43,883 nucleotides of DNA from Nitrospirota bacterium. Its GTDB lineage: Bacteria > Nitrospirota > Thermodesulfovibrionia > Thermodesulfovibrionales > UBA6898. Below, piece by piece: positions 8,488 through 25,198 of the stretch; position 1 is the first letter of the stretch, and the number at the start of each line of letters is the position of its first letter. Under the pieces are notes generated by a model. That model had not been told where the DNA came from, made no database searches, and was given only the letters and a program-made list of their open reading frames with translations. The stretch spans positions 1 through 43,883 of the forward strand of contig JACRHE010000171.1 in NCBI GenBank assembly GCA_016217695.1, read 5' to 3'. The position numbers were made by a program, and so were the translations under genes.

Positions 8488-9453
8488 ATGGATAACCTGA
8501 TCGATATCGCAAAGAGGGTTTTGCAGACCGAGGCAGACGCAATCGCAGGCCTTATTGAAAAACTCAACAGTAGTTTCGAAAAGGCCATCGACATCATCTC
8601 GCAAAGTAAGGGAAGAGTGGTTGTCACCGGCATGGGAAAGTCAGGACTGGTGGGGAAAAAAATAGCCGCAACCCTCGCCTCCACCGGCACGCCGGCCTTC
8701 TTTATGCATCCTGCAGAGGCAAGCCATGGAGACCTCGGCATGGTTACTCCTGATGACGTAATCATCGCAATCTCAAACAGCGGCGAGACAGAGGAACTGA
8801 TCGGCCTGATCCCTTTTCTTAAAAGATTTAATGTCAGTCTTATATCTTTGACCGGGAATTCCCTTTCGACCCTTTCGAGGGCTTCCGACGTCACACTCGA
8901 TATATCTGTCAAAGAGGAAGCCTGTCCGCTGGGTATAGTTCCAACTGCTTCAACGACTGCTACTATCGCAATGGGCGATGCCTTAGCAGTCTGTCTTTTA
9001 ACAAAGAGGGGGTTCAGAGAAGAAGATTTCGCTTTTTTTCACCCCAGCGGGAGCCTCGGGAAGAAGCTGTTCATAAAGGTAAAAGATATTATGCATGCAG
9101 GCGATTCCCTCCCCGAAATATCTCCTGACACCCTCATGACAGACGCAGTGATGGAGATATCCTCCAAAAGACTCGGCATCACTCTAGTGACTTCCGATAA
9201 AAAGATCCTCGGCATTATAACGGACGGGGATATACGACGCGGGATAGAAAAATGGGGAAAGGCCATCTTTGATATGACTGCAAAAGAGGTCATGTCAAGA
9301 AATCCCAAGACCATATCAGGAGAAGAGCTCGCGGCCAAGGCACTCTCTCTCCTGGAAAGGCACTCCATTACTGTGCTTGTCGTCCCTGATGAAAAAGGAC
9401 GGGCCGCCGGGATTATTCACCTCCACGATATATTGAAACAGGGGATAGCATGA
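8488..9453 (+). CDS. kdsD: Arabinose-5-phosphate isomerase (KpsF/GutQ family; SIS + CBS pair)
   Basis: 321 aa; SIS domain VTGMGKSGLVGKKIAATLASTGTPAFFMHPAEASHGDLGM and two C-terminal CBS domains. Confidence 0.93.
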   Translation: MDNLIDIAKRVLQTEADAIAGLIEKLNSSFEKAIDIISQSKGRVVVTGMGKSGLVGKKIAATLASTGTPAFFMHPAEASHGDLGMVTPDDVIIAISNSGETEELIGLIPFLKRFNVSLISLTGNSLSTLSRASDVTLDISVKEEACPLGIVPTASTTATIAMGDALAVCLLTKRGFREEDFAFFHPSGSLGKKLFIKVKDIMHAGDSLPEISPDTLMTDAVMEISSKRLGITLVTSDKKILGIITDGDIRRGIEKWGKAIFDMTAKEVMSRNPKTISGEELAAKALSLLERHSITVLVVPDEKGRAAGIIHLHDILKQGIA

Positions 9454-10007
9454 AAGGGAAAAGAACGCCTCAAAAGGGAGTCGTGTCGATACGGGAAAAA
9501 GCCAGAGGAGTTAAACTCCTTATCCTCGATGTTGATGGTGTTCTGACGGACGGCAGTATAATCCTCGATAATGAGGGGAACGAGTACAAATCGTTTCATG
9601 TGCGGGATGGCCACGGCATTAAGATGCTCATAAAAGCCGGTGTCCAGGTAGCCATTATTACCGGCCGCCATTCAAAGGTCGTTGACCGCAGGGCCCATGA
9701 ACTGGGTATCACAGAGGTTTTTCAAAAATGCTTCCTCAAGACCGCGGCCTACAACATCCTCCGTGAGAAATATTCATTATCAGACAAAGAGATAGCATAT
9801 ATCGGCGACGACATAGTTGACGTACCTATAATGGCAAAGGTCGGCTTGCCTGTTGCTGTTGCCGATGCAGTGGCTGAATTACGGCAATACGCCTTATTTG
9901 TCACAAAAAACAGGGGGGGAAGAGGAGCGGTCAGGGAAGTTACTGATTTCATCCTCAAGGCAAAGGGGATCTGGGAGGGTCTGTTTGATGAGTACTTTAA
10001 GGTTTAA
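9450..10007 (+). CDS. kdsC: 3-deoxy-manno-octulosonate-8-phosphatase, HAD family
   Basis: 185 aa; LLILDVDGVLTDGSI, GDDIVDVPIM. Confidence 0.93.
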   Translation: MKGKRTPQKGVVSIREKARGVKLLILDVDGVLTDGSIILDNEGNEYKSFHVRDGHGIKMLIKAGVQVAIITGRHSKVVDRRAHELGITEVFQKCFLKTAAYNILREKYSLSDKEIAYIGDDIVDVPIMAKVGLPVAVADAVAELRQYALFVTKNRGGRGAVREVTDFILKAKGIWEGLFDEYFKV

Positions 10008-10521
10008 CCTGCCTACTATTCTGACGCTCAGTAGAATCGTCCTGATACCGTTCTTTATCCTCTCGGTTTACCGGCATCCTCTCCTGGGAGCCTTTGTCTT
10101 TGGCATCGCTTCCCTTACGGACTTCCTTGACGGCTACCTCGCCAGACGGTCCGGACAGATAACCAAATTCGGGATTATCATGGATCCAATTGCCGACAAA
10201 TTTCTTGTCATATCGGCCCTGATCGTTCTGGTTGATATGGAAAGGCTCTCTGCATGGATAGCCATTATACTGATCGTCAGGGATTTCCTCATTACAGGGC
10301 TTCGGGTTGTCGCGCTTTCCCGCGATATTGTAATGCCTGCTGAAATCGGGGGGAAACTTAAGACAGCCGCGCAGATTACGTCTATTTTATGCCTTATTCT
10401 AATGGGTAACGTAGTTGGAATTGATCTTTATGATATAGGGCTTTTTTTCATCTGGATAGCGCTGGTGCTATCTGTGCTTTCAGGAATTAAATATACTGTT
10501 TCTTTCTGGAGAAACCTTTGA
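9988..10521 (+). CDS. pgsA: CDP-diacylglycerol--glycerol-3-phosphate 3-phosphatidyltransferase
   Basis: Start reassigned from 9853 to ATG at 9988 (MSTLRFNLPTILTLSRIVLIPFF); DFLDGYLARRSGQITKFGIIMDPIADK CDP-alcohol phosphatidyltransferase motif. Confidence 0.93.
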   Translation: MSTLRFNLPTILTLSRIVLIPFFILSVYRHPLLGAFVFGIASLTDFLDGYLARRSGQITKFGIIMDPIADKFLVISALIVLVDMERLSAWIAIILIVRDFLITGLRVVALSRDIVMPAEIGGKLKTAAQITSILCLILMGNVVGIDLYDIGLFFIWIALVLSVLSGIKYTVSFWRNL

Positions 10522-11102
10522 AGATCCTTCTCTTATCGCTCTTTGCCTTTATCACCGGTTCGATACCTACGGGGCTTCTCATAGCTAAGAGCAGAGGTAT
10601 TGATCTCAGAAGAACCGGCAGCGGAAACATAGGCGCAACAAATGTTCTGCGCTCTGCAGGCAAATTGCCTGCGTTATTGACCCTCCTCGGAGATGCCTTA
10701 AAAGGTGTCATGGCTGTTTTGGTTGCGCGTTATTTTGAAACAGGGCCATTTTACGAGGGTATTATCGGTTTTTGTTCCATTCTGGGGCACAATTTTTCCC
10801 TCTTTCTTAGATTCAGGGGGGGGAAGGGGGTTGCCACCAGTCTGGGGGTATTAAGTATTTACTCTCCACAAACAGGGCTTTTTACTTGTATAATATGGCT
10901 TATGGCGGCGGGTATTACAAAATATTCTTCCCTTGGGGCGCTCGTATCATTTGGCATGCTGCCGATAAGTATAATTCTGCTTGATCATAAGGACAAGTTT
11001 CCAGTTGCCTTGTTAATAACAATTCTCATCTTCATAAGGCACTCAAGTAATATATCCCGCCTCCTTAGACGCACAGAACCGAAGGTGGGGAATAAAGTAT
11101 GA
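10518..11102 (+). CDS. plsY: Glycerol-3-phosphate acyltransferase PlsY
   Basis: 194 aa; GSIPTGLLIAKSRGIDLRRTGSGNIGATNVLR, RGGKGVATSLG. Confidence 0.96.
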   Translation: MKILLLSLFAFITGSIPTGLLIAKSRGIDLRRTGSGNIGATNVLRSAGKLPALLTLLGDALKGVMAVLVARYFETGPFYEGIIGFCSILGHNFSLFLRFRGGKGVATSLGVLSIYSPQTGLFTCIIWLMAAGITKYSSLGALVSFGMLPISIILLDHKDKFPVALLITILIFIRHSSNISRLLRRTEPKVGNKV

Positions 11103-12793
11103 AGAAATTAGCCTTCTGCCTTCTTCTGCTTGCCTTGCTTATACCCCGCATTTCGGTCAGCGAGGATTCATACGACATACAGTTAAACAAGGGCATCCGG
11201 AATTCTCTCGAATATTCTTATGCCCTTATACAGCAGTCCACCGACAGACGTGCGGATGCAGTGGCCCTTCTGAAAAAGGCCCAAATATATTCTCCTGACC
11301 TGCCGGCAGTCTATTTTGCTCTGTCTCGTGCGGGCTTTTCATTCTCAGGTGCCGGTATATTGGACAGCGTCAACTATATTGTGCAGGGGATCAATGCTTA
11401 TTCAAGAAATTTCTGGTGGTCCTTTACCTTGTCAGGATCTCTCTTTTTCAGTCTTATCCTGTCATTCATCCTGTCTATGATTATCATCGTCAGTATAAGG
11501 CTTATCGCTGACATGGCCCTCTTTGCTCATGATCTCAGGGAAAATGCCTTCTATATCTTCTTTCTGCTGGCATTGGTTATGTTTTCTATCATTAGTCCTC
11601 TGTTTTTCATTGCCGGGCTCCTGATCCTTCTCGGCCTTTACATGAAGAAAAGCGACCGGATCACGGTTTACCTTTTCCTGCTGTTTCTCATCTTTTCTCC
11701 GATGGTTTTTAAAGCTGTCTCGATTTTTATCAATACCTCGTCTTCCGGGACAATAAAGGCTATCATCCAGGCAAATGAAGGCTCAAGCAACGATTATGCA
11801 TTATCGGTCCTCAAAAATAGGGATGACTTTATTTCCAGTTTTTCTTATGCCCTGGCATTAAAGCGCTCCGGTCATTATAACGAGGCGATCACTGTTTACA
11901 AAAAACTTGCTGAAAAAAGGCCGGCTGCAAAGGTATATGTAAATCTGGGTAACTGCTATGTAGGCTTATACAATTTCCTGGAGGAAAAACGCTTCAATCT
12001 TGAGGAAGCGGCGAAATACTATGTGCTGGCTCTTAATACTAAACCTGTTGTCTCCGCATATTACAATCTCTCCCAGGTTTCCCGGGAAATGCTCGATTTC
12101 CCAAAGGGAGAGGAGTATTTCAAGTATGCCCTTGATCAGGACAGGGTAGCCGTATCAAGCTACAGCTTGCTTTCCGGAAGAAACCCCAACAGGCTTGTAG
12201 CTGATGAAACGCTTGTGACTGCGGATCTATGGGAATACGCCGTGGGAGCGGATACTACGGCGACAACATTCGGCTTCTCGCTTATTCCTGCTACCTTCAT
12301 TCCGGTTCTCGCCTTAGCCCTGCTCATATCTTTCTATCTATTGACCACTCGCTTGAAACAAAAGGCTTACCGTTGCAGGAAATGTAACGATATCCTCTGC
12401 CCAAAGTGTGAAAAACGCATCATGTGGGGCCAGATGTGCCCCCAGTGTTATCGCTCTCTTATAAAGCTCGATGAGCTTGATGTTAAAGAAAGAGTGGCGA
12501 GACTCCTCTCTATTTACGAGAAACAGCGCAAGCGTAGAAATGCCATGAAGATCCTCTCTTTTATCCTCCCGGGTTCTTCACAGATCTTCGCCGGCAAGAT
12601 ATTGCTTGGGTTTTTCTTTTTGTGGCCTTTTCTTTTTTTTATTCTTGTACCTGTGACAAACTTATTCTTTTCGATGCGGAGCTCTCTGGTATCACACAGC
12701 TTTTTTAACTGGGCGGCATTATTCATGGCGATAATGCTGTATTTTGCTACAAACCTCATAACGAGACAGAGGATTTCAAAAGGATGGCTTTAG
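11099..12793 (+). CDS. Multi-TM protein with TPR repeats, zinc-ribbon and C-terminal TM2-like segment
   Basis: 564 aa; signal/TM N-term, TPR-like stretch, CRKCNDILCPKCEKRIMWGQMCPQCYRS, then ILPGSSQIFAGKILLGFFFLWPF. Confidence 0.7.
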   Translation: MKKLAFCLLLLALLIPRISVSEDSYDIQLNKGIRNSLEYSYALIQQSTDRRADAVALLKKAQIYSPDLPAVYFALSRAGFSFSGAGILDSVNYIVQGINAYSRNFWWSFTLSGSLFFSLILSFILSMIIIVSIRLIADMALFAHDLRENAFYIFFLLALVMFSIISPLFFIAGLLILLGLYMKKSDRITVYLFLLFLIFSPMVFKAVSIFINTSSSGTIKAIIQANEGSSNDYALSVLKNRDDFISSFSYALALKRSGHYNEAITVYKKLAEKRPAAKVYVNLGNCYVGLYNFLEEKRFNLEEAAKYYVLALNTKPVVSAYYNLSQVSREMLDFPKGEEYFKYALDQDRVAVSSYSLLSGRNPNRLVADETLVTADLWEYAVGADTTATTFGFSLIPATFIPVLALALLISFYLLTTRLKQKAYRCRKCNDILCPKCEKRIMWGQMCPQCYRSLIKLDELDVKERVARLLSIYEKQRKRRNAMKILSFILPGSSQIFAGKILLGFFFLWPFLFFILVPVTNLFFSMRSSLVSHSFFNWAALFMAIMLYFATNLITRQRISKGWL

Positions 12794-13833
12794 AAGGTTC
12801 TTTATCAGATTTTGGTCTTGCCGACATTCTCCAGCTTATCTATTTTCAGAGAAAGACAGGGGTGTTGACCCTTGAAGGCAAGACAGACAAGGTGCGGCTT
12901 CTCTTTATCGAAGGCAATATTTCAGGCGCTGAATCAAAAAGAAGGATTGACGACAACAGGCTTGGAAAGGTGCTGCTGAAAAAAGGACTTATAAAAGAGG
13001 TTGACCTGCAGTCTGCTCTTGAGGAACAGCGTAAAACCGGGATGAAACTCGGCAACATCCTCATCAGGAAGGAGCAGGTCGGAAAAGACATTGTCGTGGA
13101 GATACTGAGCAGCCAGATAACTGAAACCGTAATCCAGATATTTGGATGGAAACAAGGCACTTATGAGTTTGCAGCACAGGGAGTGCCCCAGGATAAAGAT
13201 CTGCCTTTTTCTATAGACACGCAGCATCTGCTTATGGAGGGTCTGAGAATCGTTGATGAAATGTCCGTCATCAAGGATAAAATTACCCTGGACACGGTAC
13301 TACATAAAAAAGCCGGATCTCCCTCCGGATTGACTGAGGAAGAAGAGGAGATTCTCTCGTATGTTGATGGTGAAAACGATGTAAGCACCATTATAGATTT
13401 AAGCGGAAAGGATAATTTCCAGGTATCAAAGACCCTCTTATCTCTTATGGAAAAAGGCATCATCGAGGCATTTGAGGCGCAGGCTGTCATTACAGAGGAT
13501 CTTACTGTTGAAACCAGGAAGCATCTTGCCATTATCAGCTATCTGCCTGCCGTTGCTATCGCGCTTTCCCTAATCCTCAGCCTTACTGTTGTGCTGATGC
13601 ATCAAGGCGAAGTTCTGAAGAAATTCAGGGCGGCCGGAGATATCGAGGAGCTGAGATTGACCTTAGAAACATTCAGGATGGAACATTCAGCATATCCCCA
13701 GTCACCGGACCTGATCACCAGGAAAAAGGACCCCTGGGGCAGGCCTTATATCTACCACCTGTCAGAAAACCTTTTTTCTATCACCAGCGCAGGCGCTGAC
13801 GGTAAAGAAGGCACTGGAGATGACATTTATTGA
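12784..13833 (+). CDS. DUF4388 (PATAN-type) protein with TM segment and GspG-like C-terminal domain
   Basis: 349 aa; N-term ALEGSLSDFGLADILQLIYFQRKTGVLTLEG; C-term LRLTLETFRMEHSAYPQ...KDPWGRPYIYHLSENLFSITSAGADGKEGTGDDIY. Confidence 0.8.
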   Translation: MALEGSLSDFGLADILQLIYFQRKTGVLTLEGKTDKVRLLFIEGNISGAESKRRIDDNRLGKVLLKKGLIKEVDLQSALEEQRKTGMKLGNILIRKEQVGKDIVVEILSSQITETVIQIFGWKQGTYEFAAQGVPQDKDLPFSIDTQHLLMEGLRIVDEMSVIKDKITLDTVLHKKAGSPSGLTEEEEEILSYVDGENDVSTIIDLSGKDNFQVSKTLLSLMEKGIIEAFEAQAVITEDLTVETRKHLAIISYLPAVAIALSLILSLTVVLMHQGEVLKKFRAAGDIEELRLTLETFRMEHSAYPQSPDLITRKKDPWGRPYIYHLSENLFSITSAGADGKEGTGDDIY

Positions 13834-13930: not shown

Positions 13931-14707
13931 ATGAAGCGGCATAATGAAAATAAAGCAGTTGTTCTGCTGAGCGGAGGCATAGACTCATCGACAGTTCTGG
14001 CCATGGCTAAAGCAGGCGAATATGATCTGCATGCATTAAGTTTCAATTATCATCAGAGACATTCGAGGGAACTCGAATCTGCAAAGATGATCGGTTCAGC
14101 CCTCGAAGTAAAAAAACACCTTTTCATAAGCTTCGACATGCGGGAGATTGGCGGGTCCGCTCTGACTACTGAACTCGCGGTACCTAAGAAATTCGGATCT
14201 GACGAACAGGATGCGTTTCAGCCGGCTAAACATTTCATACCTGTCACATATGTTCCTGCCCGTAATACCATTTTTCTCTCCTTTGCTCTGGCCTGGGCAG
14301 AAGTGCTCGGAGCCGGGCATATTTTTATAGGAGCCAATGCCGTTGATTACAGCGGGTACCCGGATTGCAGGCCTCAGTATCTGCGGGCATACGAAGAAAT
14401 GGCTAATCTTGCAACCAGGATATCTGTCGAGGGAAACCTGAAATTTAGAATTCACGCTCCTCTCTTATCCATGACAAAGGCTGAAATCATACGGAAAGGA
14501 CTAGAGTTAGGCCTCGACTACTCCCTCACCTGGAGCTGTTATGACCCTCAGCGGGCCCCCCTAAAAAAAGGCTCCGGCCACGGGGCGGATTTACTTCCTT
14601 GCGGTTTCTGCGACAGCTGCCTGATCAGAAGAAAGGGTTTTCGCGAAGCCGGGGTTGAAGACCCCCTGACGGCTTGTAATACCAACGATGTTTCATCTCT
14701 GCTATGA
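13931..14707 (+). CDS. queC: 7-cyano-7-deazaguanine synthase
   Basis: 258 aa; VVLLSGGIDSSTVLAMA; C-terminal CGFCDSC. Confidence 0.96.
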   Translation: MKRHNENKAVVLLSGGIDSSTVLAMAKAGEYDLHALSFNYHQRHSRELESAKMIGSALEVKKHLFISFDMREIGGSALTTELAVPKKFGSDEQDAFQPAKHFIPVTYVPARNTIFLSFALAWAEVLGAGHIFIGANAVDYSGYPDCRPQYLRAYEEMANLATRISVEGNLKFRIHAPLLSMTKAEIIRKGLELGLDYSLTWSCYDPQRAPLKKGSGHGADLLPCGFCDSCLIRRKGFREAGVEDPLTACNTNDVSSLL

Positions 14708-16480: not shown

Positions 16481-16795
16481 TCATTTGCCGTTTAATTTCT
16501 TTAAAAGAAGGGCTGAAAGTGTAAAATGAGGAAATTCATCTTCTTTGACCTTCTTATAAAAATCGCATAGTTCACAGCTTTTATATTTTTGAGCAAATGT
16601 TCCCTGAACCTCCCCTTTGCATAATGTGCCTGCTAGAATCCAGCAACTCCTGCCCGCATTAATACCTCCATGCACCCCATCGAGTTGGTGCGCTTTCGTA
16701 GCAGGGCATATTCCCAAGTCATGAACGTGAGCGCCTTCTGGTTCCCTGCCGCATTTTTTAAATTCCCAGCAGTTTAGTTTCTGTTTTTTTGTCAC
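16481..16795 (-). CDS. Small Cys-rich protein, two-CW-domain type
   Basis: 104 aa; LNCWEFKKCGREPEG...GRSCWILAGTLC...KSCELCDFYK. Confidence 0.75.
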   Translation of the reverse strand: MTKKQKLNCWEFKKCGREPEGAHVHDLGICPATKAHQLDGVHGGINAGRSCWILAGTLCKGEVQGTFAQKYKSCELCDFYKKVKEDEFPHFTLSALLLKKLNGK

Positions 16796-24073: not shown

Positions 24074-25198
24074 ATGAATCTGCATGATGAAGACATAGAG
24101 CCTTTTCGCGAGGCCCTGGGAATCGCGGAGAAAGCCGGTGACAGTGCCGAGGTCTCAAAAAACTGTAACCAGATAGGGATAGTGCATCAGAAGAGGGGTG
24201 ACTATGACAAGGCCCTTGATTATTCCTATAAGACATTGGGAATCACCGAAAAAACCGGAGATATCGACGGCGTTTCAAAAAGTTATAATCAGATAGGGAT
24301 CGTATATCAGAAGAGGGGGGATTATGACTGGGCTCTCGAATTTTATCACAAAGCTCTCGAAATTGCTGAGAAACAGGGGGATATTTCGGGGATAACGGTG
24401 GGCTATCAGAATATAGGGATTGTGTATCAGAAAAAGGGCGAATATGATAAGGCCCTTGAACTGTCACACAAAGCCCTCGAGATCAAGGAAAAGACGGAAG
24501 ATATTCACTCGATATTGAGGATATATGGGCAGATAGGGCTTTTGCATAAATTGCGGGGTGACTATGACAAGGCCCTTGATTATTCAGAAAGAGCCCTTGT
24601 TTTTGCAGAGAAGATCGGTGATATTGCCGGAATTTCAATGAGTTATAACCAGATAGGGATAGTACATCAGGAAAGAGGCGATTACGACAAGGCCCTCGAT
24701 TATTCAGAAAGAGGCCTTGCCCTTGCGGAGCGGATTGGTGATATTGCAGAGGTTTCGATGAGCTATAAGCAGATAGGGATAGTACACCAGAACCGCGGTG
24801 ATTACGACAAGGCCCTTGAATTTTACCAAAGGGCCCTGGAGATAGCAGAAAAGATCGGGGATATAGCAGGCGTGTCGAAGAGCTATCACCAGATAGGGAT
24901 AGTACATCAGAACCGCAGCGATTACGACAAGGCTCTTGAGTTTTACCAAAAGGCCCTGGAGATAGCCAAGAAAGTCGGCGACATAGTCGGAGTTGCCAGC
25001 AGTATTGGCATGATAGGTAAGGTTATGTATATGCGGAAAAACTATAAGGATGCGTTTGTTGATTACTTAATAGCGCTGGATATTTTTGAGAGGATAGGCT
25101 CTCCGAATATAAACATTGTTCATGAATTGATTACGGAATTAACCCGCGAAATGGGCGAGGAAGATTTCAACAAGCTAATAGAGGAGTTCAAAAATTAG
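24074..25198 (+). CDS. Tetratricopeptide repeat protein (40-aa units)
   Basis: 374 aa; about 8 units of the form GDIAGVSKSYHQIGIVHQNRGDYDKALEFYQRALEIAEKI. Confidence 0.92.
   Translation: MNLHDEDIEPFREALGIAEKAGDSAEVSKNCNQIGIVHQKRGDYDKALDYSYKTLGITEKTGDIDGVSKSYNQIGIVYQKRGDYDWALEFYHKALEIAEKQGDISGITVGYQNIGIVYQKKGEYDKALELSHKALEIKEKTEDIHSILRIYGQIGLLHKLRGDYDKALDYSERALVFAEKIGDIAGISMSYNQIGIVHQERGDYDKALDYSERGLALAERIGDIAEVSMSYKQIGIVHQNRGDYDKALEFYQRALEIAEKIGDIAGVSKSYHQIGIVHQNRSDYDKALEFYQKALEIAKKVGDIVGVASSIGMIGKVMYMRKNYKDAFVDYLIALDIFERIGSPNINIVHELITELTREMGEEDFNKLIEEFKN
24120..25010 (+). repeat. 120-bp tandem coding repeats (TPR units)
   Basis: CAGATAGGGAT...GACAAGGCCCTTGA blocks recur with a 120-nt period. 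Confidence 0.85.

Follow-up and report, generated by a model that had tools for sequence, protein, structure and literature searches.

Why would a pseudopilin-like domain be tied to a cytoplasmic signalling module, and does such a protein belong to a T2SS? The question is raised by one gene in a stretch of 43,883 nucleotides from a Nitrospirota genome (contig JACRHE010000171.1), which we call the window. An earlier note on this DNA had read the gene product as a cytoplasmic DUF4388 domain joined by one transmembrane (TM) helix to a domain resembling GspG. Together with a partner gene directly upstream, this fusion appears to form a signalling link, so far unstudied, that connects the cell interior with the envelope. 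The features of the locus are listed below, with coordinates in the window and, for the domains, residues of the fusion protein.

10518..11102, + strand: plsY, flanking the two-gene unit on the left
11099..12793, + strand: partner gene, encoding a TPR/multi-TM/zinc-ribbon protein, directly upstream of the fusion gene
12784..12793, + strand: overlap of the partner stop and the fusion start (GGATGG...TAG), 10 bp
12784..13833, + strand: fusion gene (labelled Q), 349 aa, ATG start; DUF4388 (with MshEN), winged-helix-like segment, TM helix, GspG-like domain
12793..13263, + strand: DUF4388/PATAN domain (aa 4-160), PF14332 at 104.1 bits against a gathering score of 25, E 6e-30
12958..13116, + strand: putative MshEN-type c-di-GMP-binding motif (aa 59-82, spacer 83-87, aa 88-111), NF053729
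13327..13476, + strand: winged-helix-like segment (aa 182-231), weak TrmB match in Pfam, Foldseek match to 2yu3 with probability 0.99
13474..13524, + strand: cytoplasmic linker (aa 231-247), modelled with low confidence (pLDDT <50) and unconserved
13534..13686, + strand: single continuous helix (aa 251-301) in which the TM part (about 254-272) runs into a helix like the pilin alpha1-C, from AlphaFold and hydropathy
13690..13830, + strand: GspG-like head (aa 303-349; YP ... DPWG ... Y.Y ... calcium loop), from the T2SSG profile and Foldseek
13792..13824, + strand: putative PERCAL-type calcium loop GADGKEGTGDD (aa 337-347), exact to G-x-D-G-x-x-[GN]-[TN]-x-D-D
13931..14707, + strand: queC, flanking the two-gene unit on the right

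Architecture of the fusion protein

The open reading frame had been drawn correctly in the earlier note, to the nucleotide, and its N-terminal DUF4388 is matched by PF14332 in all of the 35 aligned orthologs as well. We take DUF4388 to be the same as the PATAN domain. The winged-helix-like segment is less regularly recognised, with a weak TrmB match in five of the 35 aligned orthologs. Scans with the Pfam and NCBIfam profiles found no receiver (REC) domain in the fusion protein, and no kinase or other known output domain.

The protein has one hydrophobic segment (residues 254-272, mean KD 2.5), and a second TM segment within residues 1-220 was found in none of the 61 orthologs. Beyond the membrane, the T2SSG profile (PF08334) matches the full protein with 32.7 bits (E 8e-8, best stretch 314-346, gathering cut-off 21) and the C-terminal half alone with 37.5 bits (E 2.6e-9). 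The same profile matches 34 of the 35 aligned orthologs at E<=0.01. Searching the PDB sequences with the C-terminal half returned GspG chains only (2kep, 2e-7).

Structure prediction points the same way. The AlphaFold model of the full-length protein, built from a 35-sequence alignment, has a pLDDT of 78 and gave no Foldseek match at E<=1e-3, because a multidomain chain dilutes local matches. When the C-terminal 103 residues were refolded alone (pLDDT 88.8), clean GspG matches appeared: the top 11 of the 29 matches were T2SS major pseudopilins (probability 0.99-1.00, TM 0.52-0.64) and ranks 12-14 were a type IV pilin. As no Foldseek E-value is better than a modest 3.6e-3, the argument rests on the specificity of the list of matches. 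On these models the C-terminal half is predicted to be a pilin fold, which is more than a calcium loop. It resembles GspG, EpsG and XcpT in the register of the long alpha1 helix, the YP turn, the DPWG motif, the two-stranded sheet and the calcium loop.

Over pilin residues 1 to 57, the latter at the YP turn, the helix of the fusion aligns without gaps to the two canonical GspG proteins of the same genome. In this register Gly-1 corresponds to H247, Phe/Met 1 to L248 and Glu5 to S252, and a prepilin cleavage motif adjoining the TM segment is absent from every aligned ortholog. Because the prepilin Gly and Glu5 are replaced by His and Ser, the fusion should stay uncleaved, anchored and unpolymerised, oriented N-in/C-out like a prepilin before processing. 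It differs from GspG, EpsG and XcpT in lacking the prepilin leader, Gly-1 and Glu5, in having a cytoplasmic domain of about 245 residues in front, and in its shorter variable region; moreover, it does not lie in a gsp operon and occurs in genomes lacking GspG.

The calcium-site loop described in the earlier note is an exact match, in sequence, to the PERCAL motif, first reported in peroxidases and in the E. coli pseudopilin 3G20 (PMC3396595). The pattern is fully matched by 36 of the 61 orthologs. The other structural claims of the earlier note also held: the C-terminal half does match GspG profiles, and hydropathy, the predicted helix and the missing cleavage motif agree on a single TM segment away from any prepilin N-terminus. 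Taken as a whole, the fusion looks like a bitopic inner-membrane protein with a cytoplasmic DUF4388-MshEN half, one TM helix and a periplasmic domain of the GspG fold.

A c-di-GMP motif within DUF4388

The cytoplasmic signalling module of the earlier note can be described more specifically, since its DUF4388 domain embeds a putative MshEN c-di-GMP motif. Residues 59-111 match the full length of the NCBIfam model for this MshE-related motif (NF053729), scoring 50.7 bits where the cut-off is 38, and all 35 aligned orthologs match the model at E<=0.01. In the published MshEN consensus (PMC5013675) a 5-residue spacer separates two 24-residue motifs, and the fusion has exactly this 24+5+24 spacing (RLGKVLLKKGLIKEVDLQSALEEQ - RKTGM - KLGNILIRKEQVGKDIVVEILSSQ). 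Motif I fully fits the consensus (key residues R, L, G, L, L, Q). Motif II departs from its strict form at three positions: R to K (K88), G10 to E (E97) and L17 to V (V104). Among 62 orthologs the Gly3 of both motifs never varies, 60 have Gln24 in motif II, and R/K1, G3 and Q24 are mostly retained in both motifs. The relaxed published rule is satisfied by both motifs in 27 of the 62; the strict motif is not found in every ortholog.

A PDB search with the ortholog profile matched residues 51-119 to Thermus PilF (1e-18), PilB (7e-9) and MshE (9e-9), and the fusion C-terminus to GspG (2e-5). The AF2 model of the motif overlays on c-di-GMP-bound MshE with an rmsd of 1.2 A (33% identity) and on PilF-GSPII with an rmsd of 0.8 A (52% identity), both with a Foldseek probability of 0.99. 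Given the motif layout, the matches of the orthologs to the model, the PDB profile matches and the structural overlay, c-di-GMP binding is likely for the family; for this particular copy the prediction is less sure. The fusion shares with the MshEN/GSPII domains of MshE, PilB, PilF and GspE (PMC5013675) the 24+5+24 layout, the NCBIfam c-di-GMP_motif and the predicted structure, but its motif is embedded in DUF4388 instead of lying N-terminal to an ATPase, and its motif II is off the strict consensus.

The N-terminal domain is also common to the PATAN regulators PatA, PixG, PixE and LsiR. Unlike them, the fusion has no receiver domain and is tethered in the membrane to a periplasmic pilin-fold domain, and its insertion matches the MshEN c-di-GMP motif. 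Makarova 2006, which PMC11580455 cites, presents PATAN in its title as a domain with an alpha-helical insertion. The binding partners of PATAN regulators in Synechocystis include PilB1 and PilC, the motor and platform of the type IV pilus (PMC12288463; PMC10519157).

A DUF4388 paralog is encoded on contig 27 of the same genome (L113:682-2388); it is 568 aa long and contains an MshEN-like insertion. By eye, a PilZ-like region seems to precede the insertion and DnaJ-like and TPR regions seem to follow it. This is a possible second c-di-GMP-linked architecture of DUF4388.

The partner gene and the locus

The partner protein has a signal-anchor, several TM segments (about six hydrophobic segments in total), a TPR region at about aa 240-350 and a C-terminal TM segment. 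Six invariant cysteines in CxxC pairs (C426, 429, 434, 437, 447 and 450) form a zinc-ribbon-like pattern. Hydropathy and positive charges suggest that the TPR part is periplasmic and the zinc ribbon cytoplasmic. Elsewhere in the window, directly after dnaA-dnaN-gyrB, a 374-aa protein with very regular TPR repeats is encoded (24074-25198, TPR_12 E 1e-61).

The exact 10-bp overlap between partner and fusion was found in 76 of 86 loci, a count in which some genomes appear twice. Across the 61 related genomes the two genes are both present or both absent, barring cases at contig edges or with broken frames. The fusion and its partner are one translationally coupled two-gene unit.

The order kdsC-pgsA-plsY-partner-fusion-queC is kept in the class, and kdsA-kdsD-kdsC-pgsA-plsY-partner-fusion recurs in several classes of Nitrospirota, where the genes downstream differ. 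The neighbours are thus genes of Kdo, phospholipid and queuosine metabolism, and there are no pil or gsp genes near the locus. In four genomes lacking the pair, from three families (L114, L116, L118 and L119), plsY immediately adjoins queC; families without the pair still have kds, pgsA and plsY. As the pair sits at the same place in other classes, the simplest reading is that it was lost as one unit.

Distribution and variation of the fusion

The earlier note had proposed a survey of the fusion across genomes. We found it at full length in 48 of the 61 related genomes (44-100% identity), and the family in 120 of 396 sampled Nitrospirota genomes (E<=1e-40). Hence, the fusion is no product of chance or of assembly, and it is conserved over much of the phylum. 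A contig scan, limited in reach to close relatives, gave Nitrospirota records, and the only match in a plasmid collection was to a distant DUF4388.

The head is more variable than the rest. In proteins from other families (L095, L096, L104 and L105) the calcium loop and DPWG core are lost or unrecognisable, and DUF4388, the TM segment and the partner are kept. The protein of L099 (family f14, 8596-10008) retains DUF4388 and the TM segment and ends shortly past the latter, with no pilin head. The c-di-GMP motif is retained in most of the head-degenerate proteins; it is lost in L096 and below the cut-off in L099. Because the GspG-like core is degenerate or missing in these five, it is the ancestral or common form of the family and not a universal one.

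Three single copies depart from the family in other ways. In one ortholog (L012:1513-1515, genome G001, MALE*SLTDF) an in-frame TGA replaces the codon of Gly5, invariant in the 35-sequence alignment. Selenocysteine was considered, given selA and selB in the neighbourhood, and judged less likely in view of this invariant Gly; the TGA is probably a GGA-to-TGA point change or a sequence error. One MAG has the gene split over two frames (L066:10001-10844, 124 and 146 aa), by frameshift or assembly error. In L094:3277-4278 a deletion, natural or due to assembly error, fuses the alpha1 helix straight to the calcium loop and removes YP...DPWG. Between selA and selB, the window also holds a small Cys-rich ORF of 104 aa (16481-16795, - strand, NCWEFKKCG...CELCDFYKK) with no Pfam match.

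Relation to T2SS, type IV pili and c-di-GMP enzymes

The earlier note described a tethered pseudopilin domain bearing a cytosolic signalling module and proposed testing for interaction with T2SS or T4P components. The anatomy is fair, but a connection to T2SS found no support. A canonical GspG above the curated cut-off is present in 11 of 17 sampled carriers of the fusion and absent from the other six, and family f3 has GspG and lacks the fusion. The GspG equivalog model (TIGR01710) scores the fusion at 30.6 bits, far under its cut-off of 88.85. Since the fusion persists in genomes without canonical GspG, has no prepilin site, does not lie in a gsp operon and falls below that cut-off, we rejected it as a T2SS subunit.

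PilM, a marker of T4aP, is above the cut-off in 16 of the 17 carriers and also in the pair-less families f3 and f13. GGDEF proteins occur in all 61 genomes, with 14 in the source genome. As both are nearly universal in the group, we discarded their correlation with the fusion as a functional argument: their occurrence is compatible with a role in pili and c-di-GMP signalling and is no evidence for either. The link of the fusion to T4P by co-occurrence is therefore weak.

Possible roles of the pair

The MshEN motif and winged-helix-like segment, the overlapping partner gene and the phylum-scale occurrence independent of GspG all go beyond the earlier reading. The anatomy of the fusion and its partner, their pairing and the absence of processing are well supported computationally, and we hold them with high confidence. 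The parts (PATAN/DUF4388, MshEN, the GspG fold) are known, and their combination, with its strict pairing to a TPR/zinc-ribbon protein, was not found described. A search of open-access literature, which leaves most subscription journals outside its scope, found no paper on the fusion, or on DUF4388 together with GspG or MshEN; this is weak evidence of novelty.

The model we prefer, with about even confidence, is that the fusion and its partner form a regulator of the envelope that responds to c-di-GMP and perhaps acts on the assembly of type IV filaments. Binding of c-di-GMP, a step we consider probable, would alter the state of the cytoplasmic DUF4388-MshEN half. The change would travel along the rigid helix and via the partner to the pilin-like head, or in reverse. 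The target would be an envelope-assembly machinery, most plausibly the motor or platform of a type IV filament, because PATAN binds PilB/PilC and MshEN regulates PilB/GspE-type ATPases in other bacteria. Spanning the inner membrane, the two proteins would engage the filament platform through the pilin-like half and the PATAN half. Naming the filament as target is a tentative guess from family precedent, plausible at best. Against the filament model stand the operon neighbours, none of them pil or gsp, the changes in motif II, the presence of PilM in families without the pair, and a head core that some families dispense with.

The main rival is suggested by the operon. The pair might couple c-di-GMP to the synthesis of LPS/Kdo or of phospholipids, apart from type IV filaments, the pilin fold being merely a rigid extracytoplasmic domain that touches the TPR partner. 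The gene order kept from kdsA to the fusion across several classes, with variable genes downstream, speaks for such a regulator, as do the lack of pil and gsp genes nearby and the degenerate GspG-like core of some lineages that keep the pair. Yet housekeeping operons often bear unrelated passengers, families without the pair retain kds, pgsA and plsY, and PATAN, MshEN and the retention of a pilin fold all indicate type IV filament machinery. We regard regulation of envelope synthesis as somewhat unlikely.

Signals might also run from outside in. Pseudomonas PilS detects PilA within the membrane, and the uncleaved head might similarly sample calcium or the membrane pool of pilins and report inward, c-di-GMP merely tuning the response. 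The orientation and the TM-helix register are those of an unprocessed pilin, the PERCAL motif is exact, and DUF4388 with the winged-helix-like segment could serve as output. However, the full-consensus calcium loop occurs in just the 36 orthologs mentioned above and is absent in several other families, and the profile scans found no known output domain. A sensor of this kind seems unlikely.

A bolder version of the filament model would make the fusion a membrane-locked pilin mimic, an ancient and phylum-wide pseudopilin subunit that cannot be cleaved and carries a c-di-GMP receptor as its cytoplasmic tail. Together with its partner it would dock on a type IV filament platform in the inner membrane and gate assembly in response to c-di-GMP. 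We are doubtful of this version; if true, it would mean direct control by a second messenger from the side of the subunit and not via the motor ATPase. Finally, a degenerate T2SS/T4P subunit, i.e., a pseudopilin still built into the pseudopilus after gaining a cytoplasmic domain, would explain the GspG fold and alpha1 register, but is very improbable given the missing Gly-1, Glu5 and cleavage motif, the low TIGR01710 score, the carriers without GspG and a folded N-domain of 240 aa that is hard to fit inside a filament.

For DUF4388, the match of the helical insertion to the MshEN c-di-GMP motif in this family offers a functional lead, as judged from sequence. If our reading holds, the fusion would be a case of a pilin fold that stays anchored for good and serves as a signalling domain, and the pair would give c-di-GMP a route to the periplasmic side of the envelope in Nitrospirota, which are known largely through metagenomes.
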